Shown here piece after piece: positions 1 to 58,124 of a stretch of DNA of 64,000 nt. A program made the position numbers and the translations under genes. Each line of letters starts with the position of its first letter. The stretch's first letter is position 1. The stretch covers positions 6,559,501 through 6,623,500 of the forward strand of contig OY727100.1 of assembly GCA_963402885.1 (NCBI GenBank), written 5' to 3'. Source of the stretch: Antedon bifida. Taxonomy: Eukaryota; Echinodermata; Crinoidea; Comatulida; Antedonidae. A model generated the notes under the pieces. It had not been told where the DNA came from. It did no database searches and worked only from the letters and a program-made list of their open reading frames with translations.

Positions 1-326
1 TTTGAGCATTTCGATAAAACTTTTCACACAAAAACATCAAAGAGCACAAAATAGCTTAATATCGTATTTAAAAACGTTTTAGACCATTTTGAGCATTTCA
101 ACAAAACTTTTCACACAAAACATCAAAGTGTACAGAATAGCTTCAAATCGCATTTGGAGACGTTTTAGACCATTTTGTGATTTTCGAAAAAACTTGTTAA
201 CATAAAAACACCAAAGAGCTAAGAATATCTTCAAATCGCATTTGGAGACGTTTTAGACCATTTTGTGCATTTCGATGAAACTTTGTTACACAAAAACATC
301 AAAGTGCTTAAAATCACATTAGAAAC
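1..326. repeat. HOR unit, 3' end only (cut by window start)
   Basis: Last four monomers (G, G, D, C; first one partial) of a HOR unit that begins before the window. It matches 45098-45423, the end of unit 11, with one substitution seen (162 G versus 45259 C), so the super-unit period extends to the left edge. Confidence 0.85.
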
Positions 327-665
327 CGTTTTAGACCATTTTGAGCATTTCGATAAAACTTTTCACACAAAACATCAAAGTGTACAGAATAGCTTCAAAT
401 CGCATTTGGAGACGTTTTAGACCATTTTGAGCATTTCGATAAAACTTTTCACACAAAAACATCAAAGAGCACAGAATAGCTTCAAATCGCATTTGGAGAC
501 GTTTTAGACCATTTTGTGATTTTCGAAAAAACTTGTTAACATAAAAACACCAAAGAGCTAAGAATATCTTCAAATCGCATTTGGAGACGTTTTAGACCAT
601 TTTGTGCATTTCGATGAAACTTTGTTACACAAAAACATCAAAGTGCTTAAAATCACATTTGGAGA
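327..665. repeat. Representative G-G-D-C monomer block (339 bp)
   Basis: This block shows the building plan. Monomer G1 is 327-412 (86 bp, core TTTTGAGCATTTCGATAAAA). G2 is 413-499 (87 bp). D is 500-587 (88 bp, core TTTTGTGATTTTCGAAAAAA). C is 588-665 (78 bp, core TTTTGTGCATTTCGATGAAA, with a tail lacking the CAAATCGC dyad). This exact combination (G2 ending in an AGAGCACAGAATAG variant) occurs once per HOR unit and was used to set unit starts. The three classes share the head and most of the tail, so they derive from one ancestral monomer of about 86 bp. Confidence 0.93.
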
Positions 666-3600
666 CGTTTTAGACCATTTTGAGCATTTCGATAAAACTT
701 TTCACACAAAAACAGCAAAGTGCACAAAATAGCTTAATATGGTATTTGAAAACGTTTTAGACCATTTTGAGCATTTAGACAAAACTTTTTGATACTAAAC
801 ATAAAAGTGTACAGAATAGCTTCAAATCGCATTTGGAGACGTTTTAAACCATTTTTTGATTTTCGAACAAACTTGTTAACATAAAAACTCCAAAGCGCTT
901 AGAATAGCTTCAAATCGCATTTGGAGACGTTTTAGACCATTTTATGATTTTCGAAAAAACTTGTTAACATAAAAATACCAAAGTTTTAAGAATAGCTTCA
1001 AATCGCATTTGGAGATGTTTAAGACCATTTTGTGCATTTCGATGAAACTTGGTTACACAAAAACATCAAAGTGCTTAAAATCACATTAGAAACCGTTTTA
1101 GACCATTTTGAGCATTTCGATAAAACTTTTCACACAAAACATCAAAGTGTACAGAATAGCTTCAAATCGCATTTGGAGACGTTTTAGACAATTTTGAACA
1201 TTTCGACAAAACTTTTTCACACAAAACATCAAAGTGTACAGAATAGCTTCAAATCGCATTTGGAGACGTTTTAGACCATTTTGTGATTTTCGAAAAAACT
1301 TGTTAACATAAAAACACCAAAGTGCTTAGAATAGCTTCAAATCTCATTTGGAGACGTTTTAGACCATTTTGTGCATTTCGATGAAACTTGGTTACAGAAA
1401 AACATCTAAGTGCTTAAAATCACATTAGAAACCGTTTTAGACCATTTTGAGCATTTCGATAAAACTTTTCACACAAAGCATCCAAGTGTACAGAATAGCT
1501 TCAAATCGCATTTGGAGACGTTTTAGACCATTTTGTGATTTTCGAAAAAACTTGTTACCATAAAAACACCAAAGAGCTAAGAATATCTTCAAATCGCATT
1601 TGGAGACGTTTTAGACCATTTTGTGCATTTCGATGAAACTCTGTTACACAAAAACATCAAAGTGCTTAAAATCACATTTGAAACCGTTTTAAACCATTTT
1701 GAGCATTTCGATAAAACTTTTCACACAAAAACAGCAAAGTGCACAAAATAGCTTAATATGGTATTTGAAAACGTTTTAGACCATTTTGAGCATTTCGATA
1801 AAACTTTTCACACAAAAACATCAAAGAGCACAAAATAGCTTAATATCGTATTTAAAAACGTTTTAGACCATTTTGAACATTTCGACAAAACTTTTTCACA
1901 CAAAACATCGCAGTGTACAGAATAGCTTCAAATCGCATTTGGAGACGTTTCAGACCATTTTGTGATTTTCGAAAAAACTTGTTAACATAATAACACCAAA
2001 GTGCTTAGAATAGCTTCAAATCGCATTTGGAGACGTTTTAGACCATTTTGTGCATTTCGATGAAACTTGGTTACACAAAAACATCAAAGTGCTTAAAATC
2101 ACATTAGAAACCGTTTTAGACCATTTTTAGCATTTCGCTAAAACTTTTCACACAAAAACATCAAAGAGCACAAAATAGCTTAATATCGTATTTAAAAACG
2201 TTTTAGACCATTTTGAGCATTTCAACAAAACTTTTCACACAAAACATCAAAGTGTACAGAATAGCTTCAAATCGCATTTGGAGACGTTTTAGACCATTTT
2301 GTGATTTTCGAAAAAACTTGTTAACATAAAAACACCAAAGAGCTAAGAATATCTTCAAATCGCATTTGGAGACGTTTTAGACCATTTTGTGCATTTCGAT
2401 GAAACTTTGTTACACAAAAACATCAAAGTGCTTAAAATCACATTTGGAGACGTTTTAAACTATTTTGAGCATTTCGATAAAACTTTTGACACAAAAACAG
2501 CAAAGTGCACAAAATAGCTTATTATGGTATTTGAAAACGTTTTAGACCATTTTGAGCATTTTGAGAAAACTTTTTCACACAAAATTTCATAGTGTACAGA
2601 ATAGCTTCAAATCGCATTAGAAAACGTTTTAGACCATTTTGAGCATTTCAATAAAACTTTTCACAAGAAAACATCAATGTGCACAAAAGAGCTTAATATG
2701 GTATTTAAAAATGTTTTAAACCATTTTGAGCATTTCGTTAAAACTTTTCACACAAAAACATCAAAGTGTACAGAATAGCTTCAAATCGCATTTGGAGACG
2801 TTTAAACCATTTTGTGATTTTTGAAAAAACTTGTTAACATAAAAACACCAAAGTGCTAAGAATAGCTTCAAATCGCATTTGGAGACGTTTTAGACCATTT
2901 TGTGATTTTCGAAAAAACTTGTTGACATAAAAACACCAAAGTGCTAAGAATAGCTTCAAATCGCATTTGGAGACGTTTTAGACCATTTTGTAATTTTCGA
3001 AAAAACTAGTTAACATAAAAACACCAAAGTGCTAAGAATAGCTTCAAATCGCATTTGGAGACGTTTTAAACCATTTTGTGATTTTCGAAAAAACTTGTTA
3101 ACATAAAAACACCAAAGTGCTTAGAATAGCTTCAAATCGCATTTGGAGACGTTTTAGACCATTTTGTGCATTTCGATGAAACTTTGTTACACAAAAACAT
3201 CAAAGTGCTTAAAATCACATTTGAAACCGTTTTAGACCATTTTGAGCATTTCGATAAAACTTTTCACACAAAAACAGCAAAGTGCACAAAATAGCTTAAT
3301 ATGGTATTTGAAAACGTTTTAGACCATTTTGAGCATTTCGACAAAACTTTTTCATACTAAACATCAAAGTGTACAGAATAGCTTCAAATCGCATTTGGAG
3401 ACGTTTTAGACCATTTTGTGATTTTCGAAAAAACTTGTTAACATAAAAACTACTAAGTGCTTAGAATAGCTTCAAATCGCATTTGGAGACGTTTTAGACC
3501 ATTTTATGATTTTCGAAAAAACTTGTTAACATAAAAATACCAAAGTTCTAAGAATAGCTTCAAATCGCATTTGGAGACGTTTTAGACCATTTTGTGCATT

Positions 3601-4420
3601 TCGATGAAACTTGGTTACACAAAAACATCAAAGTGCTTAAAATCAAAATAGAAACCGTTTTAGACCATTTTGAGCATTTCGATAAAACTTTTCACACAAA
3701 AACATCAAAGAGCACAAAATAGCTTAATATCGTATTTAAAAACGTTTTAGACCATTTTGAACATTTCGACAAAACTTTTTCACACAAAACATCAAAGTGT
3801 ACAGAATAGCTTCAAATCGCATTTGGAGACGTTTTAGACCATTTTGTGATTTTCGAAAAAACTTGTTAACATAAAAACACCAAAGTCCTTAGAATAGCTT
3901 CAAATCGCATTTGGAGACGTTTTAGACCATTTTGTGCATTTCGATGAAACTTTGTTACACAAAAACATCAAAGTGCTTAAAATCACATTTGGAGACGTTT
4001 TAGACCATTTTGAGCATTTCGATAAAACTTTTCACACAAAACATCAAAGTGTACAGAATAGCTTCAAATCGCATTTGGAGACGTTTTAGACAATTTTGAG
4101 CATTTCGATAAAACTTTTCACACAAAAACATCAAAGAGCACAAAATAGCTTAATATCGTATTTAAAAACGTTTTAGACCATTTTGAGCATTTCAACAAAA
4201 CTTTTCACACAAAACATCAAAGTGTACAGAATAGCTTCAAATCGCATTTGGAGACGTTTTAGACCATTTTGTGATTTTCGAAAAAACTTGTTAACATAAA
4301 AACACCAAAGAGCTAAGAATATCTTCAAATCGCATTTGGAGACGTTTTAGACCATTTTGTGCATTTCGATGAAACTTTGTTACACAAAAACATCAAAGTG
4401 CTTAAAATCACATTAGAAAC
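327..4420. repeat. HOR unit 1 (4,094 bp)
   Basis: Reference HOR unit. I count 48 monomers in the order GGDC, GGDDC, GGDC, GDC, GGGDC, GGDC, GGGGDDDDC, GGDDC, GGDC, GGGDC, so ten blocks each ending in one C. Landmarks: GATACTAAACATAAAAG in a G monomer near 795, GAGATGTTTAAGACC near 1013, CATCGCAGTG near 1906, CATAATAACACC near 1987, four D monomers in a row from about 2799, and the AAATCAAAATAG variant near 3640. Unit 12 has the same length and landmarks. Confidence 0.9.
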
Positions 4421-7400
4421 CGTTTTAGACCATTTTGAGCATTTCGATAAAACTTTTCACACAAAACATCAAAGTGTACAGAATAGCTTCAAATCGCATT
4501 TGGAGACGTTTTAGACCATTTTGAGCATTTCGATAAAACTTTTCACACAAAAACATCAAAGAGCACAGAATAGCTTCAAATCGCATTTGGAGACGTTTTA
4601 GACCATTTTGTGATTTTCGAAAAAACTTGTTAACATAAAAACACCAAAGAGCTAAGAATATCTTCAAATCGCATTTGGAGACGTTTTAGACCATTTTGTG
4701 CATTTCGATGAAACTTTGTTACACAAAAACATCAAAGTGCTTAAAATCACATTTGGAGACGTTTTAGACCATTTTGAGCATTTCGATAAAACTTTTCACA
4801 CAAAAACAGCAAAGTGCACAAAATAGCTTAATATGGTATTTGAAAACGTTTTAGACCATTTTGAGCATTTAGACAAAACTTTTTGATACTAAACATAAAA
4901 GTGTACAGAATAGCTTCAAATCGCATTTGGAGACGTTTTAAACCATTTTTTGATTTTCGAACAAACTTGTTAACATAAAAACTCCAAAGCGCTTAGAATA
5001 GCTTCAAATCGCATTTGGAGACGTTTTAGACCATTTTATGATTTTCGAAAAAACTTGTTAACATAAAAATACCAAAGTTTTAAGAATAGCTTCAAATCGC
5101 ATTTGGAGATGTTTTAGACCATTTTGTGCATTTCGATGAAACTTGGTTACACAAAAACATCAAAGTGCTTAAAATCACATTAGAAACCGTTTTAGACCAT
5201 TTTGAGCATTTCGATAAAACTTTTCACACAAAACATCAAAGTGTACAGAATAGCTTCAAATCGCATTTGGAGACGTTTTAGACAATTTTGAACATTTCGA
5301 CAAAACTTTTTCACACAAAACATCAAAGTGTACAGAATAGCTTCAAATCGCATTTGGAGACGTTTTAGACCATTTTGTGATTTTCGAAAAAACTTGTTAA
5401 CATAAAAACACCAAAGTGCTTAGAATAGCTTCAAATCTCATTTGGAGACGTTTTAGACCATTTTGTGCATTTCGATGAAACTTGGTTACAGAAAAACATC
5501 TAAGTGCTTAAAATCACATTAGAAACCGTTTTAGACCATTTTGAGCATTTCGATAAAACTTTTCACACAAAACATCCAAGTGTACAGAATAGCTTCAAAT
5601 CGCATTTGGAGACGTTTTAGACCATTTTGTGATTTTCGAAAAAACTTGTTAACATAAAAACACCAAAGTGCTTAGAATAGCTTCAAATCGCATTTGGAGA
5701 CGTTTTAGACCATTTTGTGCATTTCGATGAAACTTGGTTACACAAAAACATCAAAGTGCTTAAAATCACATTTGAAACCGTTTTAAACCATTTTGAGCAT
5801 TTCGATAAAACTTTTCACACAAAAACAGCAAAGTGCACAAAATAGCTTAATATGGTATTTGAAAACGTTTTAGACCATTTTGAGCATTTCGATAAAACTT
5901 TTCACACAAAAACATCAAAGAGCACAAAATAGCTTAATATCGTATTTAAAAACGTTTTAGACCATTTTGAACATTTCGACAAAACTTTTTCACACAAAAC
6001 ATCGCAGTGTACAGAATAGCTTCAAATCGCATTTGGAGACGTTTCAGACCATTTTGTGATTTTCGAAAAAACTTGTTAACATAAAAACACCAAAGTGCTT
6101 AGAATAGCTTCAAATCGCATTTGGAGACGTTTTAGACCATTTTGTGCATTTCGATGAAACTTGGTTACACAAAAACATCAAAGTGCTTAAAATCACATTA
6201 GAAACCGTTTTAGACCATTTTTAGCATTTCGCTAAAACTTTTCACACAAAAACATCAAAGAGCACAAAATAGCTTAATATCGTATTTAAAAACGTTTTAG
6301 ACCATTTTGAGCATTTCAACAAAACTTTTCACACAAAACATCAAAGTGTACAGAATAGCTTCAAATCGCATTTGGAGACGTTTTAGACCATTTTGTGATT
6401 TTCGAAAAAACTTGTTAACATAAAAACACCAAAGAGCTGAGAATATCTTCAAATCGCATATATTCATTTTGTGCATTTCGATGAAACTTGGTTACACAAA
6501 AACATCAAAGTGCTTAAAATCACATTAGAAACCGTTTTAGACCATTTTGAGCATTTCGATAAAACTTTTCACACAAAACATCAAAGTGTACAGAATAGCT
6601 TCAAATCGCATTTGGAGACGTTTTAGACAATTTTGAGCATTTCGATAAAACTTTTCACACAAAAACAGCAAAGTGCACAAAATAGCTTATTATGGTATTT
6701 GAAAACGTTTTAGACCATTTTGAGCATTTTGAGAAAACTTTTTCACACAAAATTTCAAAGTGTACAGAATAGCTTCAAATCGCATTAGAAAACGTTTTAG
6801 ACCATTTTGAGCATTTCAATAAAACTTTTCACACAAAAACATCAATGTGCACAAAAGAGCTTAATATGGTATTTAAAAACGTTTTAAACCATTTTGAGCA
6901 TTTCGTTAAAACTTTTCACACAAAAACATCAAAGTGTACAGAATAGCTTCAAATCGCATTTGGAGACGTTTAAACCATTTTGTGATTTTTGAAAAAACTT
7001 GTTAACATAAAAACATCAATGTGTACAGAATAGCTTCAAATCGCATTTGGAGACGTTTTAGACCATTTTGTGATTTTCGAAAAAACTTGTTGACATAAAA
7101 ACACCAAAGTGCTAAGAATAGCTTCAAATCGCATTTGGAGACGTTTTAGACCATTTTGTAATTTTCGAAAAAACTTGTTAACATAAAAACACCAAAGTGC
7201 TAAGAATAGCTTCAAATCGCATTTGGAGACGTTTTAGACCATTTTGTGCATTTCGAAAAAACTTGTTAACATAAAAACACCAAAGAGCTGAGAATATCTT
7301 CAAATCGCATATATTCATTTTGTGCATTTCGATGAAACTTGGTTACAGAAAAACATCAAAGTGCTTAAAATCACATTAGAAACCGTTTTAGACCATTTTG

Positions 7401-9777
7401 AGCATTTCGATAAAACTTTTCACACAAAACATCAAAGTGTACAGAATAGCTTCAAATCGCATTTGGAGACGTTTTAGACAATTTTGAGCATTGCGATAAA
7501 ACTTTTCACACAAAAACAGCAAAGTGCACAAAATAGCTTATTATGGTATTTGAAAACGTTTTAGACCATTTTGAGCATTTTGAGAAAACTTTTTCACACA
7601 AAATTTCAAAGTGTACAGAATAGCTTCAAATCGCATTAGAAAACGTTTTAGACCATTTTGAGCATTTCAATAAAACTTTTCACACAAAAACATCAATGTG
7701 CACAAAAGAGCTTAATATGGTATTTAAAAACGTTTTAAACCATTTTGAGCATTTCGTTAAAACTTTTCACACAAAAACATCAAAGTGTACAGAATAGCTT
7801 CAAATCGCATTTGGAGACGTTTAAACCATTTTGTGATTTTTGAAAAAACTTGTTAACATAAAAACATCAATGTGTACAGAATAGCTTCAAATCGCATTTG
7901 GAGACGTTTTAGACCATTTTGTGATTTTCGAAAAAACTTGTTGACATAAAAACACCAAAGTGCTAAGAATAGCTTCAAATCGCATTTGGAGACGTTTTAG
8001 ACCATTTTGTAATTTTCGAAAAAACTTGTTAACATAAAAACACCAAAGTGCTAAGAATAGCTTCAAATCGCATTTGGAGACGTTTTAGACCATTTTGTGC
8101 ATTTCGATGAAACTTGGTTACACAAAAACATCAAAGTTCTTAAAATCACATTAGAAACCGTTTTAGACCATTTTGAGCATTTCGATAAAACTTTTCACAC
8201 AAAACATCAAAGTGTACAGAATAGCTTCAAATCGCATTTGGAGACGTTTTAGACAATTTTGAGCATTTCGATAAAACTTTTCACACAAAAACATAAAAGA
8301 GCACAAAATAGCTTAATATCGTATTTAAAAACGTTTTAGACCATTTTGAACATTTCGACAAAACTTTTCACACAAAACATCAAAGTGTACAGAATAGCTT
8401 CAAATCGCATTTGGAGACGTTTTAGACCATTTTGTGATTTTCGATAAAACTTGTTAACATAAAAACACCAAAGAGCTAAGAATATCTTCAAATCGCATTT
8501 GGAGACGTTTTAGACCATTTTGTGCATTTCGATGAAACTCTGTTACATAAAAACATCAAAGTGCTTAAAATCACATTTGAAACCGTTTTAGACCATTTTG
8601 AGCATTTCGATAAAACTTTTCACACAAAAACAGCAAAGTGCACAAAATAGCTTAATATGGTATTTGAAAACGTTTTAGACCATTTTGAGCATTTCGACAA
8701 AACTTTTTCACACAAAACATCAAAGTGTACAGAATAGCTTCAAATCGCATTTGGAGACGTTTTAGACCATTTTGTGATTTTCGAAAAAAACTTGTTAACA
8801 TAAAAACACCAAAGTGCTTAGAATAGCTTCAAATCGCATTTGGAGACGTTTTAGACCATTTTGTGCATTTCGATGAAACTTTATTACACAAAAACATCAA
8901 AGTGCTTAAAATCACATTTGGAGACGTTTTAGACCATTTTGAGCATTTCGATAAAACTTTTCACACAAAAACGGCAAAGTGCACAAAATAGCTTAATATG
9001 GTATTTGAAAACGTTTTAGACCATTTTGAGCATTTCGACAAAACTTTTTCATACTAAACATCAAAGTGTACAGAATAGCTTCAAATCGCATTTGGAGACG
9101 TTTTAGACCATTTTTTGATTTTCGAACAAACTTGTTAACATAAAAACTCCAAAGTGCTTAGAATAGCTTCAAATCGCATTTGGAGACGTTTTAGACCATT
9201 TTCTGATTTTCGAAAAAACTTGTTAACATAAAAATACCAAAGTTTTAAGAATAGCTTCAAATCGCATTTGGAGACGTTTTAGACCATTTTGTGCATTTCG
9301 ATGAAACTTGGTTACACAAAAACATCAAAGTGCTTAAAATCACATTAGAAACCGTTTTAGACCATTTTGAGCATTTCGATAAAACTTTTCACACAAAACA
9401 TCAAAGTGTACAGAATAGCTTCAAATCGCATTTGGAGACGTTTTAGACAATTTTGAGCATTTCGATAAAACTTTTAACACAAAAACATCAAAGAGCACAA
9501 AATAGCTTAATATCGTATTTAAAAACGTTTTAGACCATTTTGAGCATTTCAACAAAACTTTTCACACAAAACATCAAAGTGTACAGAATAGCTTCAAATC
9601 GCATTTGGAGACGTTTTAGACCATTTTGTGATTTTCGAAAAAACTTGTTAACATAAAAACACCAAAGAGCTAAGAATATCTTCAAATCGCATTTGGAGAC
9701 GTTTTAGACCATTTTGTGCATTTCGATGAAACTTTGTTACACAAAAACATCAAAGTGCTTAAAATCACATTAGAAAC
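4421..9777. repeat. HOR unit 2 (5,357 bp, internally expanded)
   Basis: Begins like unit 1, then carries an 851-bp tandem duplication marked by the scar GCATATATTCATTTT at 6456 and 7307. Its second half has variants not found in unit 1, such as ACATAAAAGAGCAC near 8291, CACAAAAACGGCAAAG near 8965 and CTTTTAACACAAAAAC near 9471. Unit 13 has exactly the same length and structure; differences I saw are 7348 G/C, 7493 G/T and 8548 T/C. Confidence 0.88.
6456..7306. repeat. First copy of 851-bp tandem duplication, with scar
   Basis: The scar GCATATATTCATTTT replaces the usual monomer junction (GCATTTGGAGACG...CCATTTT), a net loss of 12 bp. It recurs 851 bp later at 7307, with about ten similar monomers between. 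The second copy differs in details such as CATTGCGAT at 7490. Unit 13 has the same pair (51553 and 52404). Unit 11 has only one scar (43291), the likely pre-duplication state. Confidence 0.85.
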
Positions 9778-12700
9778 CGTTTTAGACCATTTTGAGCATT
9801 TCGATAAAACTTTTCACACAAAACATCAAAGTGTACAGAATAGCTTCAAATCGCATTTGGAGACGTTTTAGACCATTTTGAGCATTTCGATAAAACTTTT
9901 CACACAAAAACATCAAAGAGCACAGAATAGCTTCAAATCGCATTTGGAGACGTTTTAGACCATTTTGTGATTTTCGAAAAAACTTGTTAACATAAAAACA
10001 CCAAAGAGCTAAGAATATCTTCAAATCGCATTTGGAGACGTTTTAGACCATTTTGTGCATTTCGATGAAACTTTGTTACACAAAAACATCAAAGTGCTTA
10101 AAATCACATTTGGAGACGTTTTAGACCATTTTGAGCATTTCGATAAAACTTTTCACACAAAAACAGCAAAGTGCACAAAATAGCTTAATATGGTATTTGA
10201 AAACGTTTTAGACCATTTTGAGCATTTAGACAAAACTTTTTGATACTAAACATAAAAGTGTACAGAATAGCTTCAAATCGCATTTGGAGACGTTTTAAAC
10301 CATTTTTTGATTTTCGAACAAACTTGTTAACATAAAAACTCCAAAGTGCTGAGAATAGCTTCAAATCGCATTTGGAGACGTTTTAGACCATTTTCTGATT
10401 TTCGAAAAAACTTGTTAACATAAAAATACCAAAGTTTTAAGAATAGCTTCAAATCGCATTTGGAGACGTTTTAGACCATTTTGTGCATTTCGATGAAACT
10501 TGGTTACACAAAAACATCAAAGTGCTTAAAATCACATTAGAAACCGTTTTAGACCATTTTGAGCATTTCGATAAAACTTTTCACACAAAAACATCAAAGA
10601 GCACAAAATAGCTTAATATCGTATTTGAAAACGTTTTAGACCATTTTGAGCATTTCGACAAAACTTTTTCATACTAAACATCAAAGTGTACAGAATAGCT
10701 TCAAATCGCATTTGGAGACGTTTTAGACAATTTTGAGCATTTCGATAAAACTTTTCACACAAAAACATCAGAGAACACAAAATAGCTTAATATCGTATTT
10801 AAAAACGTTTTAGACCATTTTGAGCATTTCAACAAAACTTTTCACACAAAACATCAAAGTGTACAGAATAGCTTCAAATCGCATTTGGAGACGTTTTAGA
10901 CCATTTTGTGATTGTCGAAAAAACTTGTTAACATAAAAACACCAAAGAGCTAAGAATATCTTCAAATCGCATTTGGAGACGTTTTAGACCATTTTGTGCA
11001 TTTCGATGAAACTTTGTTACACAAAAACATCAAAGTGCTTAAAATCACATTTGGAGACGTTTTAAACTATTTTGAGCATTTCGATAAAACTTTTCACACA
11101 AAAACAGCAAAGTGCACAAAATAGCTTATTATGGTATTTGAAAACGTTTTAGACCATTTTGAGCATTTTGAGAAAACTTTTTCACACAAAATTTCAAAGT
11201 GTACAGAATAGCTTCAAATCGCATTAGAAAACGTTTTAGACCATTTTGAGCATTTCAATAAAACTTTTCACACGAAAACATCAATGTGCACAAAAGAGCT
11301 TAATATGGTATTTAAAAATGTTTTAAACCATTTTGAGCATTTCGTTAAAACTTTTCACACAAAAACATCAAAGTGTACAGAATAGCTTCAAATCGCATTT
11401 GGAGACGTTTAAACCATTTTGTGATTTTTGAAAAAACTTGTTAACATAAAAACACCAAAGTGCTAAGAATAGCTTCAAATCGCATTTGGAGACGTTTTAG
11501 ACCATTTTGTGATTTTCGAAAAAACTTGTTGACATAAAAACACCAAAGTGCTAAGAATAGCTTCAAATCGCATTTGGAGACGTTTTAGACCATTTTGTAA
11601 TTTTCGAAAAAACTAGTTAACATAAAAACACCAAAGTGCTAAGAATAGCTTCAAATCGCATTTGGAGACGTTTTAAACCATTTTGTGATTTTCGAAAAAA
11701 CTTGTTAACATAAAAACACCAAAGTGCTTAGAATAGCTTCAAATCGCATTTGGAGACGTTTTAGACCATTTTGTGCATTTCGATGAAACTTGGTTACACA
11801 AAAACATCAAAGTGCTTAAAATCACATTTGAAACCGTTTTAGACCATTTTGAGCATTTCGATAAAACTTTTCACACAAAAACATCAAAGTGTACAGAATA
11901 GCTTCAAATCGCATTTGGAGACGTTTTAGACAATTTTGAGCATTTCGATAAAACTTTTAACACAAAAACATCAAAGAGCACAAAATAGCTTAATATCGTA
12001 TTTAAAAACGTTTTAGACCATTTTGAGCATTTCAACAAAACTTTTCACACAAAACATCAAAGTGTACAGAATAGCTTCAAATCGCATTTGGAGACGTTTT
12101 AGACCATTTTGTGATTTTCGAAAAAACTTGTTAACATAAAAACTACTAAGTGCTTAGAATAGCTTCAAATCGCATTTGGAGACGTTTTAGACCATTTTAT
12201 GATTTTCGAAAAAACTTGTTAACATAAAAATACCAAAGTTCTAAGAATAGCTTCAAATCGCATTTGGAGACGTTTTAGACCATTTTGTGCATTTCGATGA
12301 AACTTGGTTACACAAAAACATCAAAGTGCTTAAAATCAAAATAGAAACCGTTTTAGACCATTTTGAGCATTTCGATAAAACTTTTCACACAAAAACATCA
12401 AAGAGCACAAAATAGCTTAATATCGTATTTAAAAACGTTTTAGACCATTTTGAACATTTCGACAAAACTTTTTCACACAAAACATCAAAGTGTACAGAAT
12501 AGCTTCAAATCGCATTTGGAGACGTTTTAGACCATTTTGTGATTTTCGAAAAAACTTGTTAACATAAAAACACCAAAGTCCTTAGAATAGCTTCAAATCG
12601 CATTTGGAGACGTTTTAGACCATTTTGTGCATTTCGATGAAACTTTGTTACACAAAAACATCAAAGTGCTTAAAATCACATTTGGAGACGTTTTAGACCA

Positions 12701-13113
12701 TTTTGAGCATTTCGATAAAACTTTTCACACAAAACATCAAAGTGTACAGAATAGCTTCAAATCGCATTTGGAGACGTTTTAGACAATTTTGAGCATTTCG
12801 ATAAAACTTTTCACACAAAAACATCAAAGAGCACAAAATAGCTTAATATCGTATTTAAAAACGTTTTAGACCATTTTGAGCATTTCAACAAAACTTTTCA
12901 CACAAAACATCAAAGTGTACAGAATAGCTTCAAATCGCATTTGGAGACGTTTTAGACCATTTTGTGATTTTCGAAAAAACTTGTTAACATAAAAACACCA
13001 AAGAGCTAAGAATATCTTCAAATCGCATTTGGAGACGTTTTAGACCATTTTGTGCATTTCGATGAAACTTTGTTACACAAAAACATCAAAGTGCTTAAAA
13101 TCACATTAGAAAC
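9778..13113. repeat. HOR unit 3 (3,336 bp)
   Basis: Corresponds to unit 14 (3,250 bp). The 86-bp difference is one extra monomer inside a divergent tract at 11884-12051, where three monomers replace the two found in unit 14. Other landmarks are GTGCTGAG near 10347, CATCAGAGAACAC near 10767 and TGATTGTCG near 10910, shared with units 7-9 and 14. Confidence 0.88.
11884..12051. repeat. Conversion-like patch in HOR unit 3
   Basis: These 168 bp stand where the second super-unit copy has 82 bp (56981-57062); sequence on both sides aligns without a break (offset 45,097 before, 45,011 after). The patch carries the uncommon CTTTTAACAC variant and reads the same as the stretch starting near 9398 in unit 2. 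A short non-reciprocal transfer from such a neighbour, exchanging two monomers for three, explains it. Confidence 0.8.
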
Positions 13114-16100
13114 CGTTTTAGACCATTTTGAGCATTTCGATAAAACTTTTCACACAAAACATCAAAGTGTACAGAATAGCTTCAAATCGCATTTGGAGAC
13201 GTTTTAGACCATTTTGAGCATTTCGATAAAACTTTTCACACAAAAACATCAAAGAGCACAGAATAGCTTCAAATCGCATTTGGAGACGTTTTAGACCATT
13301 TTGTGATTTTCGAAAAAACTTGTTAACATAAAAACACCAAAGAGCTAAGAATATCTTCAAATCGCATTTGGAGACGTTTTAGACCATTTTGTGCATTTCG
13401 ATGAAACTTTGTTACACAAAAACATCAAAGTGCTTAAAATCACATTTGGAGACGTTTTAGACCATTTTGAGCATTTCGATAAAACTTTTCACACAAAAAC
13501 AGCAAAGTGCACAAAATAGCTTAATATGGTATTTGAAAACGTTTTAGACCATTTTGAGCATTTAGACAAAACTTTTTGATACTAAACATAAAAGTGTACA
13601 GAATAGCTTCAAATCGCATTTGGAGACGTTTTAAACCATTTTTTGATTTTCGAACAAACTTGTTAACATAAAAACTCCAAAGCGCTTAGAATAGCTTCAA
13701 ATCGCATTTGGAGACGTTTTAGACCATTTTATGATTTTCGAAAAAACTTGTTAACATAAAAATACCAAAGTTTTAAGAATAGCTTCAAATCGCATTTGGA
13801 GATGTTTTAGACCATTTTGTGCATTTCGATGAAACTTGGTTACACAAAAACATCAAAGTGCTTAAAATCACATTAGAAACCGTTTTAGACCATTTTGAGC
13901 ATTTCGATAAAACTTTTCACACAAAACATCAAAGTGTACAGAATAGCTTCAAATCGCATTTGGAGACGTTTTAGACAATTTTGAACATTTCGACAAAACT
14001 TTTTCACACAAAACATCAAAGTGTACAGAATAGCTTCAAATCGCATTTGGAGACGTTTTAGACCATTTTGTGATTTTCGAAAAAACTTGTTAACATAAAA
14101 ACACCAAAGTGCTTAGAATAGCTTCAAATCTCATTTGGAGACGTTTTAGACCATTTTGTGCATTTCGATGAAACTTGGTTACAGAAAAACATCTAAGTGC
14201 TTAAAATCACATTAGAAACCGTTTTAGACCATTTTGAGCATTTCGATAAAACTTTTCACACAAAACATCCAAGTGTACAGAATAGCTTCAAATCGCATTT
14301 GGAGACGTTTTAGACCATTTTGTGATTTTCGAAAAAACTTGTTACCATAAAAACACCAAAGAGCTAAGAATATCTTCAAATCGCATTTGGAGACGTTTTA
14401 GACCATTTTGTGCATTTCGATGAAACTCTGTTACACAAAAACATCAAAGTGCTTAAAATCACATTTGAAACCGTTTTAAACCATTTTGAGCATTTCGATA
14501 AAACTTTTCACACAAAAACAGCAAAGTGCACAAAATAGCTTAATATGGTATTTGAAAACGTTTTAGACCATTTTGAGCATTTCGATAAAACTTTTCACAC
14601 AAAAACATCAAAGAGCACAAAATAGCTTAATATCGTATTTAAAAACGTTTTAGACCATTTTGAACATTTCGACAAAACTTTTTCACACAAAACATCGCAG
14701 TGTACAGAATAGCTTCAAATCGCATTTGGAGACGTTTCAGACCATTTTGTGATTTTCGAAAAAACTTGTTAACATAAAAACACCAAAGTGCTTAGAATAG
14801 CTTCAAATCGCATTTGAAGACGTTTTAGACCATTTTGTGCATTTCGATGAAACTTGGTTACACAAAAACATCAAAGTGCTTAAAATCACATTAGAAACCG
14901 TTTTAGACCATTTTGAGCATTTCGATAAAACTTTTCACACAAAAACATCAAAGAGCACAAAATAGCTTAATATCGTATTTGAAAACGTTTTAGACCATTT
15001 TGAGCATTTCGACAAAACTTTTTCATACTAAACATCAAAGTGTACAGAATAGCTTCAAATCGCATTTGGAGACGTTTTAGACAATTTTGAGCATTTCGAT
15101 AAAACTTTTCACACAAAAACATCAGAGAACACAAAATAGCTTAATATCGTATTTAAAAACGTTTTAGACCATTTTGAGCATTTCAACAAAACTTTTCACA
15201 CAAAACATCAAAGTGTACAGAATAGCTTCAAATCGCATTTGGAGACGTTTTAGACCATTTTGTGATTGTCGAAAAAACTTGTTAACATAAAAACACCAAA
15301 GAGCTAAGAATATCTTCAAATCGCATTTGGAGACGTTTTAGACCATTTTGTGCATTTCGATGAAACTTTGTTACACAAAAACATCAAAGTGCTTAAAATC
15401 ACATTTGGAGACGTTTTAAACTATTTTGAGCATTTCGATAAAACTTTTCACACAAAAACAGCAAAGTGCACAAAATAGCTTATTATGGTATTTGAAAACG
15501 TTTTAGACCATTTTGAGCATTTTGAGAAAACTTTTTCACACAAAATTTCAAAGTGTACAGAATAGCTTCAAATCGCATTAGAAAACGTTTTAGACCATTT
15601 TGAGCATTTCAATAAAACTTTTCACACGAAAACATCAATGTGCACAAAAGAGCTTAATATGGTATTTAAAAATGTTTTAAACCATTTTGAGCATTTCGTT
15701 AAAACTTTTCACACAAAAACATCAAAGTGTACAGAATAGCTTCAAATCGCATTTGGAGACGTTTAAACCATTTTGTGATTTTTGAAAAAACTTGTTAACA
15801 TAAAAACACCAAAGTGCTAAGAATAGCTTCAAATCGCATTTGGAGACGTTTTAGACCATTTTGTGATTTTCGAAAAAACTTGTTGACATAAAAACACCAA
15901 AGTGCTAAGAATAGCTTCAAATCGCATTTGGAGACGTTTTAGACCATTTTGTAATTTTCGAAAAAACTAGTTAACATAAAAACACCAAAGTGCTAAGAAT
16001 AGCTTCAAATCGCATTTGGAGACGTTTTAAACCATTTTGTGATTTTCGAAAAAACTTGTTAACATAAAAACACCAAAGTGCTTAGAATAGCTTCAAATCG

Positions 16101-16654
16101 CATTTGGAGACGTTTTAGACCATTTTGTGCATTTCGATGAAACTTGGTTACACAAAAACATCAAAGTGCTTAAAATCACATTTGAAACCGTTTTAGACCA
16201 TTTTGAGCATTTCGATAAAACTTTTCACACAAAAACAGCAAAGTGCACAAAATAGCTTAATATGGTATTTGAAAACGTTTTAGACCATTTTGAGCATTTC
16301 GACAAAACTTTTTCATACTAAACATCAAAGTGTACAGAATAGCTTCAAATCGCATTTGGAGACGTTTTAGACCATTTTGTGATTTTCGAAAAAACTTGTT
16401 AACATAAAAACTACTAAGTGCTTAGAATAGCTTCAAATCGCATTTGGAGACGTTTTAGACCATTTTATGATTTTCGAAAAAACTTGTTAACATAAAAATA
16501 CCAAAGTTCTAAGAATAGCTTCAAATCGCATTTGGAGACGTTTTAGACCATTTTGTGCATTTCGATGAAACTTGGTTACACAAAAACATCAAAGTGCTTA
16601 AAATCAAAATAGAAACCGTTTTAGACCATTTTGAGCATTTCGATAAAACTTTTC

Positions 16655-16658
16655 ACAC
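16655..16658. other. Target-site duplication, left copy (ACAC)
   Basis: Last four bases of satellite before the insertion. The empty site reads TTTTCACACAAAAACATC; the left border keeps TTTTCACAC and the right border starts again with ACACAAAAAC. Confidence 0.65.
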
Positions 16659-16673
16659 TGGTACTGGTACTGG
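16659..16673 (-). repeat. Simple-repeat 3' tail of the retroelement
   Basis: TGGTACTGGTACTGG on the plus strand, i.e. CCAGTACCAGTACCA at the element's 3' end, two and a half copies of a 6-bp unit. It abuts the target sequence directly and marks the priming site of cDNA synthesis. The mirror copy is at 18061-18075. Confidence 0.8.
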
Positions 16674-16843
16674 TTCAAATAACCGTCTCACAGAGACATC
16701 TGGTAGCCATTGACTTAAAGTTGGCATTTGGATGTGTTACTTTTAAATGTAGGCCTACAGTATGAGAGTGACTACTACCAAATTACACAGTCTCAAAACA
16801 ACTTATAAACAGTTCATATATACAGTTAAAACATTGCTGGGAA
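16659..16843 (-). other. Retroelement 3' UTR
   Basis: The 185 bp between the stop codon and the insertion border form a short 3' UTR, read right to left. It has no long poly(A) and ends in a short simple repeat. A brief 3' UTR with a microsatellite-like end is usual for RTE elements and supports the assignment. This UTR is also present inverted at 17891-18075. Confidence 0.75.
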
Positions 16844-17814
16844 TTATAAATTTCTGTTGAAGCAGGCTCTAATGAAGTTGCATCTAGTAAGTTGACTTTG
16901 TTGTACAACTCTATCAAGTATTGATGGTATCTTCCGACCTCTTCGTTTACTTTGGGTTGTGTGAAAAGTAAGAATTTTTGTAGGATCTTCATTTTCTTTT
17001 CTAATTACATGTCCGATCCAGTTGAATTGTTGCTTGTAGACATATTCTTCTAGCGGTTGACAGCCAGTAATTTTGTAGAGATCGTCATTATCAATAACGT
17101 AACGCCAGTCTATATAGTTTTCATCTGTTTCTTCATCTGAGGATATGTCTACATGGTTTGGTGGGCAGACTCTTTGAAAGCCATTCACTAGCATTCTTCT
17201 TAGGAAGGTTTTGTATGTTGTGCTAAGTTTGGACATTTCACTTCCTGTTGCCCTCCAAGCATGGCAACCATAGGTGAGTCTACTCCTAACTAGACCATTA
17301 AGAAACATCATTCTTGTTTGTAAGTGGATCGTTCTGTTGGTAAGCAATGCTCTATTCTCTGCAAATGCTCCTTTGGCTGAATTGATTCTGTATTTTACTT
17401 CTTGATCTCCAATATGAACATCATTGTAGGTAGCCCATACACCAAGGTATCTAAAGTGTGTTACGTTGTTAATGTGTACGCCGCCAATTTGTATGATGCA
17501 TCTTGGGTATTCTTCAACTTCCTCTTTCCAGTTCCATATAATGGTTTCTGTTTTGGGGGCACTAATTCTTAGACCAAATTCCAGACAAACTTTATTCAAG
17601 ATGTTCACAATGGTTTGCAGTTCTTCTTGTGACCAGGAGCTTACAGCAAAGTCATCAGCATAGCCACTTTCAAAGTCGTCATAGATGCCCCTTGATGGTG
17701 CTTTACGTCTTTGAGCACGATTTGTAGCTTCAATAGGAATTAGGTATTGTATCATTAGGCCATCCAAACTAGCATCTTTACAGCGTTGTTTGAACACTCT
17801 AATAACGTAATCAA
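16844..17814 (-). pseudogene. Reverse transcriptase, C-terminal fragment of an RTE-like non-LTR retrotransposon
   Basis: An open frame of 323 authentic codons ends in TAA at 16844. It encodes the polymerase core and C-terminal region of a LINE reverse transcriptase. The catalytic YADD is encoded at 17651-17662. Downstream are an LEFGLRIS/KTE segment (palm), an FRYLGVW motif, a basic helix (EVKYRINSAKGAF), RSRLTYGCHAWR and a C-terminal RRGRKIPSILDRV, the order seen in RTE-type enzymes. The endonuclease and the fingers part of the polymerase are missing, so the copy is 5'-truncated and cannot act alone. No stop or frameshift interrupts what remains, suggesting a recent insertion. The open frame runs on to 17842, but those first nine codons (TTG start) come from the inverted arm and are not part of the protein. 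RTE assignment is by motif layout only; a related clade is possible. Confidence 0.85.
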
Positions 17815-18075
17815 ACTTGATAGAGTTGTACAACAAAGTCAACTTACTAGATGCAACTTCATTAGAGCCTGCTTCAACAGAAATTTATAATTCCCAGCAA
17901 TGTTTTAACTGTATATATGAACTGTTTATAAGTTGTTTTGAGACTGTGTAATTTGGTAGTAGTCACTCTCATACTGTAGGCCTACATTTAAAAGTAACAC
18001 ATCCAAATGCCAACTTTAAGTCAATGGCTACCAGATGTCTCTGTGAGACGGTTATTTGAACCAGTACCAGTACCA
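17815..18075 (+). pseudogene. Inverted duplicate of the retroelement 3' end
   Basis: A second copy of the element's last 261 bp, here in plus orientation. It carries the last 24 reverse transcriptase codons (from 17816, beginning LDRVVQQ) with the TAA stop at 17888-17890, the whole 3' UTR and the CCAGTA tail. It has no upstream coding part and is a by-product of the fold-back. Confidence 0.85.
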
Positions 18076-18419
18076 GTGTGAAAAGTTTTATCGAAATGCT
18101 CAAAATGGTCTAAAACGGTTTCTATTTTGATTTTAAGCACTTTGATGTTTTTGTGTAACCAAGTTTCATCGAAATGCACAAAATGGTCTAAAACGTCTCC
18201 AAATGCGATTTGAAGCTATTCTTAGAACTTTGGTATTTTTATGTTAACAAGTTTTTTCGAAAATCATAAAATGGTCTAAAACGTCTCCAAATGCGATTTG
18301 AAGCTATTCTAAGCACTTAGTAGTTTTTATGTTAACAAGTTTTTTCGAAAATCACAAAATGGTCTAAAACGTCTCCAAATGCGATTTGAAGCTATTCTGT
18401 ACACTTTGATGTTTAGTAT
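18076..18419 (-). repeat. Inverted satellite segment
   Basis: The only part of the window where the satellite runs in the opposite orientation. It is the reverse complement of 16315-16658 and keeps that locus's rare variants (AAATCAAAATAG, ATACCAAAGTTCTAAG, AACTACTAAG), so it was copied from the immediate left flank or from the same position in another unit. Its outer edge lies mid-monomer. Confidence 0.9.
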
Positions 18420-18420
18420 T

Positions 18421-18424
18421 ACAC
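18421..18424. other. Target-site duplication, right copy (ACAC)
   Basis: The four bases repeat 16655-16658 and open the restored satellite. The preceding T (18420) matches neither the empty site (C) nor the palindrome (G) and looks like junction filler. With only four low-complexity bases, chance microhomology cannot be excluded. Confidence 0.6.
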
Positions 18425-19147
18425 AAAAACATCAAAGAGCACAAAATAGCTTAATATCGTATTTAAAAACGTTTTAGACCATTTTGAACATTTCGACAAA
18501 ACTTTTTCACACAAAACATCAAAGTGTACAGAATAGCTTCAAATCGCATTTGGAGACGTTTTAGACCATTTTGTGATTTTCGAAAAAACTTGTTAACATA
18601 AAAACACCAAAGTCCTTAGAATAGCTTCAAATCGCATTTGGAGACGTTTTAGACCATTTTGTGCATTTCGATGAAACTTTGTTACACAAAAACATCAAAG
18701 TGCTTAAAATCACATTTGGAGACGTTTTAGACCATTTTGAGCATTTCGATAAAACTTTTCACACAAAACATCAAAGTGTACAGAATAGCTTCAAATCGCA
18801 TTTGGAGACGTTTTAGACAATTTTGAGCATTTCGATAAAACTTTTCACACAAAAACATCAAAGAGCACAAAATAGCTTAATATCGTATTTAAAAACGTTT
18901 TAGACCATTTTGAGCATTTCAACAAAACTTTTCACACAAAACATCAAAGTGTACAGAATAGCTTCAAATCGCATTTGGAGACGTTTTAGACCATTTTGTG
19001 ATTTTCGAAAAAACTTGTTAACATAAAAACACCAAAGAGCTAAGAATATCTTCAAATCGCATTTGGAGACGTTTTAGACCATTTTGTGCATTTCGATGAA
19101 ACTTTGTTACACAAAAACATCAAAGTGCTTAAAATCACATTAGAAAC

Positions 19148-21697
19148 CGTTTTAGACCATTTTGAGCATTTCGATAAAACTTTTCACACAAAACATCAAA
19201 GTGTACAGAATAGCTTCAAATCGCATTTGGAGACGTTTTAGACCATTTTGAGCATTTCGATAAAACTTTTCACACAAAAACATCAAAGAGCACAGAATAG
19301 CTTCAAATCGCATTTGGAGACGTTTTAGACCATTTTGTGATTTTCGAAAAAACTTGTTAACATAAAAACACCAAAGAGCTAAGAATATCTTCAAATCGCA
19401 TTTGGAGACGTTTTAGACCATTTTGTGCATTTCGATGAAACTTTGTTACACAAAAACATCAAAGTGCTTAAAATCACATTTGGAGACGTTTTAGACCATT
19501 TTGAGCATTTCGATAAAACTTTTCACACAAAAACAGCAAAGTGCACAAAATAGCTTAATATGGTATTTGAAAACGTTTTAGACCATTTTGAGCATTTAGA
19601 CAAAACTTTTTGATACTAAACATAAAAGTGTACAGAATAGCTTCAAATCGCATTTGGAGACGTTTTAAACCATTTTTTGATTTTCGAACAAACTTGTTAA
19701 CATAAAAACTCCAAAGCGCTTAGAATAGCTTCAAATCGCATTTGGAGACGTTTTAGACCATTTTATGATTTTCGAAAAAACTTGTTAACATAAAAATACC
19801 AAAGTTTTAAGAATAGCTTCAAATCGCATTTGGAGATGTTTAAGACCATTTTGTGCATTTCGATGAAACTTGGTTACACAAAAACATCAAAGTGCTTAAA
19901 ATCACATTAGAAACCGTTTTAGACCATTTTGAGCATTTCGATAAAACTTTTCACACAAAACATCAAAGTGTACAGAATAGCTTCAAATCGCATTTGGAGA
20001 CGTTTTAGACAATTTTGAACATTTCGACAAAACTTTTTCACACAAAACATCAAAGTGTACAGAATAGCTTCAAATCGCATTTGGAGACGTTTTAGACCAT
20101 TTTGTGATTTTCGAAAAAACTTGTTAACATAAAAACACCAAAGTGCTTAGAATAGCTTCAAATCTCATTTGGAGACGTTTTAGACCATTTTGTGCATTTC
20201 GATGAAACTTGGTTACAGAAAAACATCTAAGTGCTTAAAATCACATTAGAAACCGTTTTAGACCATTTTGAGCATTTCGATAAAACTTTTCACACAAAGC
20301 ATCCAAGTGTACAGAATAGCTTCAAATCGCATTTGGAGACGTTTTAGACCATTTTGTGATTTTCGAAAAAACTTGTTACCATAAAAACACCAAAGAGCTA
20401 AGAATATCTTCAAATCGCATTTGGAGACGTTTTAGACCATTTTGTGCATTTCGATGAAACTCTGTTACACAAAAACATCAAAGTGCTTAAAATCACATTT
20501 GAAACCGTTTTAAACCATTTTGAGCATTTCGATAAAACTTTTCACACAAAAACAGCAAAGTGCACAAAATAGCTTAATATGGTATTTGAAAACGTTTTAG
20601 ACCATTTTGAGCATTTCGATAAAACTTTTCACACAAAAACATCAAAGAGCACAAAATAGCTTAATATCGTATTTAAAAACGTTTTAGACCATTTTGAACA
20701 TTTCGACAAAACTTTTTCACACAAAACATCGCAGTGTACAGAATAGCTTCAAATCGCATTTGGAGACGTTTTAGACCATTTTGTGATTTTCGAAAAAACT
20801 TGTTAACATAAAAATACCAAAGTTCTAAGAATAGCTTCAAATCGCATTTGGAGACGTTTTAGACCATTTTGTGCATTTCGATGAAACTTGGTTACACAAA
20901 AACATCAAAGTGCTTAAAATCAAAATAGAAACCGTTTTAGACCATTTTGAGCATTTCGATAAAACTTTTCACACAAAAACATCAAAGAGCACAAAATAGC
21001 TTAATATCGTATTTAAAAACGTTTTAGACCATTTTGAACATTTCGACAAAACTTTTTCACACAAAACATCAAAGTGTACAGAATAGCTTCAAATCGCATT
21101 TGGAGACGTTTTAGACCATTTTGTGATTTTCGAAAAAACTTGTTAACATAAAAACACCAAAGTCCTTAGAATAGCTTCAAATCGCATTTGGAGACGTTTT
21201 AGACCATTTTGTGCATTTCGATGAAACTTTGTTACACAAAAACATCAAAGTGCTTAAAATCACATTTGGAGACGTTTTAGACCATTTTGAGCATTTCGAT
21301 AAAACTTTTCACACAAAACATCAAAGTGTACAGAATAGCTTCAAATCGCATTTGGAGACGTTTTAGACAATTTTGAGCATTTCGATAAAACTTTTCACAC
21401 AAAAACATCAAAGAGCACAAAATAGCTTAATATCGTATTTAAAAACGTTTTAGACCATTTTGAGCATTTCAACAAAACTTTTCACACAAAACATCAAAGT
21501 GTACAGAATAGCTTCAAATCGCATTTGGAGACGTTTTAGACCATTTTGTGATTTTCGAAAAAACTTGTTAACATAAAAACACCAAAGAGCTAAGAATATC
21601 TTCAAATCGCATTTGGAGACGTTTTAGACCATTTTGTGCATTTCGATGAAACTTTGTTACACAAAAACATCAAAGTGCTTAAAATCACATTAGAAAC
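19148..21697. repeat. HOR unit 5 with 1,544-bp internal deletion
   Basis: Follows unit 1 (offset 18,821) up to about 20770, then continues as the part of unit 1 near 3534 (AAAATACCAAAGTTC at 20811). The loss is 1,544 bp, 18 monomers, exactly the length difference from unit 1. The break lies inside a D monomer whose head combines features of both parents, as expected from unequal exchange between homologous monomers. Confidence 0.85.
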
Positions 21698-44200: not shown

Positions 44201-45423
44201 CATCAAAGTGCTTAAAATCACATTTGAAACCGTTTTAGACCATTTTGAGCATTTCGATAAAACTTTTCACACAAAAACAGCAAAGTGCACAAAATAGCTT
44301 AATATGGTATTTGAAAACGTTTTAGACCATTTTGAGCATTTCGACAAAACTTTTTCATACTAAACATCAAAGTGTACAGAATAGCTTCAAATCGCATTTG
44401 GAGACGTTTTAGACCATTTTGTGATTTTCGAAAAAACTTGTTAACATAAAAACTACTAAGTGCTTAGAATAGCTTCAAATCGCATTTGGAGACGTTTTAG
44501 ACCATTTTATGATTTTCGAAAAAACTTGTTAACATAAAAATACCAAAGTTCTAAGAATAGCTTCAAATCGCATTTGGAGACGTTTTAGACCATTTTGTGC
44601 ATTTCGATGAAACTTGGTTACACAAAAACATCAAAGTGCTTAAAATCAAAATAGAAACCGTTTTAGACCATTTTGAGCATTTCGATAAAACTTTTCACAC
44701 AAAAACATCAAAGAGCACAAAATAGCTTAATATCGTATTTAAAAACGTTTTAGACCATTTTGAACATTTCGACAAAACTTTTTCACACAAAACATCAAAG
44801 TGTACAGAATAGCTTCAAATCGCATTTGGAGACGTTTTAGACCATTTTGTGATTTTCGAAAAAACTTGTTAACATAAAAACACCAAAGTCCTTAGAATAG
44901 CTTCAAATCGCATTTGGAGACGTTTTAGACCATTTTGTGCATTTCGATGAAACTTTGTTACACAAAAACATCAAAGTGCTTAAAATCACATTTGGAGACG
45001 TTTTAGACCATTTTGAGCATTTCGATAAAACTTTTCACACAAAACATCAAAGTGTACAGAATAGCTTCAAATCGCATTTGGAGACGTTTTAGACAATTTT
45101 GAGCATTTCGATAAAACTTTTCACACAAAAACATCAAAGAGCACAAAATAGCTTAATATCGTATTTAAAAACGTTTTAGACCATTTTGAGCATTTCAACA
45201 AAACTTTTCACACAAAACATCAAAGTGTACAGAATAGCTTCAAATCGCATTTGGAGACCTTTTAGACCATTTTGTGATTTTCGAAAAAACTTGTTAACAT
45301 AAAAACACCAAAGAGCTAAGAATATCTTCAAATCGCATTTGGAGACGTTTTAGACCATTTTGTGCATTTCGATGAAACTTTGTTACACAAAAACATCAAA
45401 GTGCTTAAAATCACATTAGAAAC
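41256..45423. repeat. HOR unit 11 (4,168 bp)
   Basis: Last unit of the first super-unit. It exceeds unit 1 by 74 bp: one extra 86-bp G monomer, minus 12 bp lost at the scar GCATATATTCATTTT (43291). Its first part resembles unit 2; from about 43800 it follows unit 1. It carries the scar once, without the 851-bp duplication. Confidence 0.85.
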
Positions 45424-48400: not shown

Positions 48401-49517
48401 GTATTTGAAAACGTTTTAGACCATTTTGAGCATTTCGACAAAACTTTTTCATACTAAACATCAAAGTGTACAGAATAGCTTCAAATCGCATTTGGAGACG
48501 TTTTAGACCATTTTGTGATTTTCGAAAAAACTTGTTAACATAAAAACTACTAAGTGCTTAGAATAGCTTCAAATCGCATTTGGAGACGTTTTAGACCATT
48601 TTATGATTTTCGAAAAAACTTGTTAACATAAAAATACCAAAGTTCTAAGAATAGCTTCAAATCGCATTTGGAGACGTTTTAGACCATTTTGTGCATTTCG
48701 ATGAAACTTGGTTACACAAAAACATCAAAGTGCTTAAAATCAAAATAGAAACCGTTTTAGACCATTTTGAGCATTTCGATAAAACTTTTCACACAAAAAC
48801 ATCAAAGAGCACAAAATAGCTTAATATCGTATTTAAAAACGTTTTAGACCATTTTGAACATTTCGACAAAACTTTTTCACACAAAACATCAAAGTGTACA
48901 GAATAGCTTCAAATCGCATTTGGAGACGTTTTAGACCATTTTGTGATTTTCGAAAAAACTTGTTAACATAAAAACACCAAAGTCCTTAGAATAGCTTCAA
49001 ATCGCATTTGGAGACGTTTTAGACCATTTTGTGCATTTCGATGAAACTTTGTTACACAAAAACATCAAAGTGCTTAAAATCACATTTGGAGACGTTTTAG
49101 ACCATTTTGAGCATTTCGATAAAACTTTTCACACAAAACATCAAAGTGTACAGAATAGCTTCAAATCGCATTTGGAGACGTTTTAGACAATTTTGAGCAT
49201 TTCGATAAAACTTTTCACACAAAAACATCAAAGAGCACAAAATAGCTTAATATCGTATTTAAAAACGTTTTAGACCATTTTGAGCATTTCAACAAAACTT
49301 TTCACACAAAACATCAAAGTGTACAGAATAGCTTCAAATCGCATTTGGAGACGTTTTAGACCATTTTGTGATTTTCGAAAAAACTTGTTAACATAAAAAC
49401 ACCAAAGAGCTAAGAATATCTTCAAATCGCATTTGGAGACGTTTTAGACCATTTTGTGCATTTCGATGAAACTTTGTTACACAAAAACATCAAAGTGCTT
49501 AAAATCACATTAGAAAC
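45424..49517. repeat. HOR unit 12 (copy of unit 1)
   Basis: Starts the second super-unit copy. Same length (4,094 bp) and landmarks as unit 1 at offset 45,097, including the private CATAATAACACC variant and GAGATGTTTAAGACC. Confidence 0.9.
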
Positions 49518-57800: not shown

Positions 57801-58124
57801 TGAGCATTTCGATAAAACTTTTCACACAAAAACATCAAAGAGCACAAAATAGCTTAATATCGTATTTAAAAACGTTTTAGACCATTTTGAGCATTTCAAC
57901 AAAACTTTTCACACAAAACATCAAAGTGTACAGAATAGCTTCAAATCGCATTTGGAGACGTTTTAGACCATTTTGTGATTTTCGAAAAAACTTGTTAACA
58001 TAAAAACACCAAAGAGCTAAGAATATCTTCAAATCGCATTTGGAGACGTTTTAGACCATTTTGTGCATTTCGATGAAACTTTGTTACACAAAAACATCAA
58101 AGTGCTTAAAATCACATTAGAAAC
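54875..58124. repeat. HOR unit 14 (copy of unit 3, without patch)
   Basis: 3,250 bp; matches unit 3 except that 56981-57062 holds the standard two-monomer sequence (CAGCAAAGTGCACAAAATAG, then a CATACTAAACATC monomer). The same version stands in units 1, 4, 9, 10 and 12, so this is the ancestral state. Confidence 0.88.

Follow-up and report, generated by a model that had tools for sequence, protein, structure and literature searches.

The window analysed here is a 64-kb stretch of the genome of the crinoid Antedon bifida (assembly GCA_963402885.1, contig OY727100.1, positions 6,559,501 to 6,623,500; C13:6559501-6623500 in our numbering), and all coordinates below refer to it. It holds a satellite array that is interrupted by a 5′-truncated long interspersed nuclear element (LINE), which is followed by an inverted copy of its own 3′ end and of the satellite flanking that end. 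We consider it very probable that this arrangement arose during the insertion itself: the complementary DNA (cDNA) primed on the target folded back on itself (snap-back), was elongated by copying into the host DNA and was then end-joined to the far side of the break.

The evidence centers on a pair of inverted arms. Positions 17815-18419 are the exact reverse complement of 16315-16919 (605 of 605 bases, without a mismatch); the arms are 895 bp apart, and their identity breaks off immediately at both the outer and the inner ends. In extended form, the same pair is the longest inverted repeat listed for the window. Each arm consists of 261 bp of the LINE 3′ end and 344 bp of satellite. From left to right, an array of 87/88-bp monomers, identified with TRF and entirely in plus orientation (1-16658), constitutes the 3′ flank of the insertion; its last 344 bp (16315-16658, plus strand) are the donor of the inverted satellite and match the reverse complement of 18076-18419 exactly. 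The LINE fragment itself lies on the minus strand at 16659-17814, and its 3′ tail, three ACCAGT units on the sense strand, spans 16657-16674 (minus strand) and is identical in 20 other copies from 16659 onward. The inverted copy of the last 261 bp of the LINE follows at 17815-18075 on the plus strand (aligned by BLAST as 18075-17810), then the inverted satellite at 18076-18419 on the minus strand, a lone T at 18420 with no template in donor or target, and the right copy of a target duplication, ACAC, at 18421-18424. Its left copy is at 16655-16658, where the AC at 16657-16658 can be assigned either to the target or to the LINE tail. From 18425 to 64000, the array continues in plus orientation. 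The initial annotation had described this same succession of LINE fragment, inverted LINE end, inverted satellite and resuming array, and it holds in every element; the outer border at 18424 stands for the structure as a whole, but the arm ends at 18419, and the last five bases are the unexplained T and the target duplication.

The array also preserves the site in its uninterrupted form. When 16659-18424 are removed, the joined flanks are identical to a 2200-bp stretch at 56302-58501 of the same window and, with 500 bp per side, occur exactly at five places in it. The closest insertion-free sibling of the locus, 57063-64000 (plus strand), differs from 12052-16658 joined to 18425-20755 by a single mismatch in 6938 bp, and its empty site lies between 61669 and 61670. 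Because the empty site is exact, the array continues from the very point where the LINE entered, with a target duplication of 2-4 bp; a longer duplication was considered and is ruled out, as the fifth base differs. Among 300 random right-hand sides, none reached the score of the real join (best 1230 bits, compared with 1263), and the 60-bp continuations known elsewhere after the left flank begin at 238 of 62041 array positions.

An assembly or library chimera might be suspected at such a place, given that the arms are perfectly identical and the surrounding array is highly repetitive. We nevertheless regard it as very improbable. The 895 bp left unpaired between the arms would not be expected from a simple missed hairpin adapter, and a chimera would have had to rejoin the array precisely where the LINE entered it and to produce a target duplication as well. 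Furthermore, no other inverted stretch is present in the 64 kb, nor was one found by pattern at the other 103 LINE clusters described below: in the window, no 20-mer recurs in inverted orientation without contact to the insert, and satellite in minus orientation is confined to 18076-18419.

The 344-bp donor has seven exact plus-strand copies in the window, the flank itself included. Its local origin therefore follows from its continuity with the LINE junction and not from private variants. At 16535, the sole mismatch to the sibling, the locus has G and the sibling T, and here the inverted copy agrees with the locus.

To characterize the LINE, we searched the genome (315.6 Mb in 27 contigs) with the locus as query; very common words were skipped, 40 of 1381 candidates were scored and 42 matches were listed. 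The 20 long copies at the top of this list are 99.8-100% identical to 16659-17814, and the insertion is therefore young. All 35 other copies that were read share the 3′ end, at lengths from 199 to 3848 bp and with differing flanks; as the 3′ flanks of the 20 long copies differ, the LINE is not specific for the satellite of the window. The fragment comprises the C-terminal protein part of the reverse transcriptase (RT) and the 3′ untranslated region (UTR). Its match to RVT_1 (E 8.8e-7, 29.3 bits) is slightly below the Pfam cut-off of 29.6, but a full-length relative, one fetched copy, encodes a protein of 1095 amino acids that matches both RVT_1 (E 1.4e-25) and Exo_endo_phos (E 8.9e-9). This combination in one protein identifies the element as a LINE of the apurinic/apyrimidinic endonuclease (APE) type. 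With its short 3′ UTR and tandem tail, it looks RTE-like and may belong to the RTE, CR1 or another clade.

The long copies also fix the point of truncation. Past 17814, all 20 run on as LINE sequence, AATATTGGTTAAACATG (ATCAA-AATATTGG when read across the point), while the window instead has ACTTGATAG, the complement of the sequence from 16919 read leftward. Judged against these copies, the window LINE is truncated exactly where the inverted copy begins, at 17814 or at 17815, as the next base is A both in the window and in the other copies. Either the LINE cDNA ends with this A or the copying begins with it, so that the cDNA end placed at 17814 by the initial annotation is right to within this one ambiguous position.

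Taken together, these features would be explained by the following course of events. In target-primed reverse transcription, a nick made by the LINE endonuclease near 16658, in the plus strand of the satellite, would prime cDNA synthesis rightward, which would halt at 17814/17815. While the far end was still unjoined, the free 3′ end of the cDNA, ATCAAA (17810-17815, plus strand), would fold onto the same strand at 16919-16925. Its leftward extension would copy the LINE 3′ end, pass the junction between cDNA and target and proceed along 344 nt of the host plus strand to 16315. Once unwound, the new end would be joined across the staggered break to its far side, with one extra T and no microhomology seen, and the second strand would be made by fill-in. 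For the priming itself, the initial annotation had paired ATCAA with TTGAT at 16921-16925 and skipped template base 16920. Such pairing is possible, but no skip is needed if the cDNA ends at 17815: ATCAAA can form six pairs (five plus one) with TTGAT and T16919 on the plus strand, with A16920 bulged. The probability of a six-pair bulged duplex for random cDNA ends and template positions is 0.0016, and that of five pairs with at most one skipped template base is 0.0026, both figures having been computed post hoc and serving as support only. The snap-back of target-primed cDNA, as proposed initially, appears to be the simplest path to the structure, and the geometry, the truncation relative to the 20 copies, the empty site and the possible pairing are all consistent with it.

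Two aspects of the inverted segment bear on the order of these events. Since it spans the LINE-target junction at 16658/16659, its template had cDNA already joined to the target. In addition, it is bounded exactly by the truncated cDNA end on one side and the target duplication on the other, and it therefore most likely dates from the closure of the 5′ end and not from a subsequent accident; this position would fit synthesis before closure. Such an accident could have been replication template switching that added the inverted copy to a finished LINE insertion. There is precedent for the outcome: PMC12350158 counts 277 inverted duplications outside mobile-element insertions among 1,019 humans, and inverted duplications mostly carry 1-15 bp of microhomology, from which its authors infer a replicative origin. 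Here, however, template switching would have to start at the truncated end of the LINE and return exactly at the target duplication, and the inverted piece lies exactly at the 5′ junction, which makes this origin very unlikely.

L1 twin priming, as described in PMC12016303, also yields insertions whose 5′ end carries LINE sequence in inverted orientation, and the LINE pieces at the locus stand head-to-head on opposite strands, as they would after twin priming or after two independent insertions in opposite orientation. Both explanations are extremely unlikely. According to the same account, twin priming joins two cDNAs made from LINE RNA and leaves the host flank uncopied, whereas the inverted segment described here combines the LINE 3′ end with 344 bp of host flank; the distinction from ordinary twin priming drawn in the initial annotation is thereby upheld. 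Two insertions, in turn, would not invert the same 344 bp of satellite, nor would they account for a single exact empty site. Of the other LINE matches listed, in a search that scored 40 of 1381 candidates and skipped very common words, none reaches further than 7 bases into the satellite of the query once the locus itself, its own arm and a neighboring piece of 42 bp are set aside, which further argues against two insertions. As a separate candidate, we considered the copying of an antisense RNA from a second insertion at that position of the satellite; it was rejected on the same result, in this non-exhaustive search.

The closest parallel is found in the R2 element. Reports on R2 transgene insertion recognize snap-back junctions as a class of their own at the 5′ end (PMC11371274, PMC11331408 and PMC12222951). 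The template is usually the cDNA and more rarely ribosomal DNA in the vicinity (PMC11371274, PMC11331408), and the two later of the three reports put the class at low frequency. The segment between the cDNA end and the target in the window is, accordingly, reverse-complemented cDNA plus target sequence, and the locus would work like those junctions. The R2 cases in these reports are engineered events with R2 protein in human cells, whereas the locus is a natural insertion of an APE-type LINE into satellite DNA, in which one continuous copy runs from the cDNA into 344 bp of host sequence and leaves inverted satellite behind. The initial annotation had thus overestimated the novelty of the locus: snap-back as such is already published for R2, and the natural case running into host flank would be the new part. 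Among the titles and abstract openings listed from the open-licence literature, we found no natural LINE insertion with an inverted copy extending into host flank, which is not a claim of its absence from print. A more distant likeness exists to the 5′ junctions of Drosophila R1 and R2, where host target is duplicated and untemplated bases occur (R1 rearrangements, 28S duplications; PMC2718515); the R1 rearrangements are short (16-27 nt), and the text does not use the word 'inverted'.

For the copy to enter the host duplex, the host strand must have been accessible. The initial annotation assumed a displaced target strand; that 344 bp of the host strand were copied stands, but end resection may have uncovered the strand instead. 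If the opposite strand, with its 5′ end toward the break, were resected, exactly the strand that was copied would become accessible; strand displacement by the RT may be the alternative. The copying enzyme may have been the LINE RT or a host polymerase, between which the sequence does not discriminate. It is quite possible, though we lean slightly away from it, that the event was carried by host DNA repair, with the unfinished insertion treated as a double-strand break: the 5′ strand would be resected past 16315, the cDNA end would fold back and be extended by Pol theta or Pol delta, and end joining would capture the far side. This would be a special case of cDNA snap-back and does not exclude it. 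The yeast model of PMC11724301 has the same steps, in that an end folds on short microhomology, is extended by Pol delta, unwound and joined to the other end by end joining; moreover, the 344 nt that were copied would become accessible if the strand across from the primer were resected, and the final join contains one untemplated base. Still, the yeast events start from host break ends and are mostly 5-34 bp, with fold-backs of this plan ranging from 2 to about 150 bp and most of them under 14, while the copy at the locus starts from a cDNA end and measures 605 nt. A host polymerase is perhaps not even needed, as L1 ORF2p uses RNA hairpins as primers and DNA as a template (PMC10830420) and PMC12222951 cites a work whose title speaks of strand displacement by an R2 RT.

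The rarity of the structure was assessed with four patterns located about 15, 145, 300 and 800 from the LINE 3′ end, whose matches were clustered within 8 kb. The 68-bp 3′ pattern (at most 3 mismatches) gave 103 matches, 100 of them listed, and the other three gave 49, 55 and 37. They form 104 LINE clusters, and among the matches listed only one, the window locus, has patterns on both strands, and the further copies with inverted 3′ ends for which the initial annotation proposed to look did not turn up; arms that hold none of the four patterns are missed by this approach, and 39 of the 104 clusters are known from the first pattern alone and were not read. Likewise, no inverted LINE arm was found in the 20 long copies (BLAST, E up to 1e-10; 16-mers within about 80 bp beyond the 5′ end) or in 15 short copies (16-mers within 400 bp beyond the 5′ end), where the one 16-mer found is its own reverse complement and hence uninformative on inversion. 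At two long-copy loci, BLAST also returned weak inverted pairs, which lie in the host flank and outside the LINE. The 39 clusters that match only the last 68 bp of the 3′ end may represent copies truncated to a very short length, divergent copies or a short interspersed nuclear element that shares this end.

Several points weigh against a snap-back of the cDNA. The duplex proposed for priming has few pairs and a bulge, and the probability given for it was calculated with the pairing already known. Local hairpins at the switch points do not stand out, with 57, 52 and 29 of 200 shuffles folding as well or better. The 344-nt run into host duplex requires resection or strand displacement, neither of which is visible, and the 605-nt copy far exceeds the yeast fold-backs of similar plan. 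Finally, the structure is known from the assembled sequence alone, and it is a single event, with no second case among the 104 clusters, including the 39 seen by the first pattern only.

If it did arise by snap-back, the locus bears on the unsettled question of how LINE insertions close their 5′ end. The copy through the cDNA-target junction shows that the joining of cDNA and host preceded the closure of the other end, the 344 nt are a measure of the host DNA open to copying, and the homogeneous array, by providing an exact empty site, makes for an unusually clean case. The locus also illustrates how a LINE can leave an inverted segment within a satellite array. Tentatively, the locus might be seen as a frozen intermediate in which the cDNA was open-ended and the host strand attached to it was single-stranded over at least 344 nt. 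If so, LINE intermediates in nature would undergo resection as the ends of broken chromosomes do, and their snap-back would be one way in which satellite arrays acquire switches of orientation.

The remaining observations concern the LINE copies and the array. In most of the 20 long copies, the target duplication is unclear; two of them (L010 and L014) have repeats of 15 and 21 bp between the 5′ and 3′ flanks, and its length seems to vary among copies. Relatives of the RT fragment were not found in IMG/VR, plasmids or phages, the best PDB match to the LINE fragment had an E-value of 0.57, and Rfam gave no match in 15900-19000. Beside one LINE copy lies an open frame (L024:15-956) that, judged by eye, resembles part of a Ty1/copia polyprotein. 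The satellite array contains an exact 7185-bp repeat (163-7347 and 45260-52444, 45.1 kb apart) and other exact blocks of 1.5-4.5 kb, the total of exact runs that reach 300 bp or more being 335, and these long exact repeats point to very recent duplication at the scale of the array.
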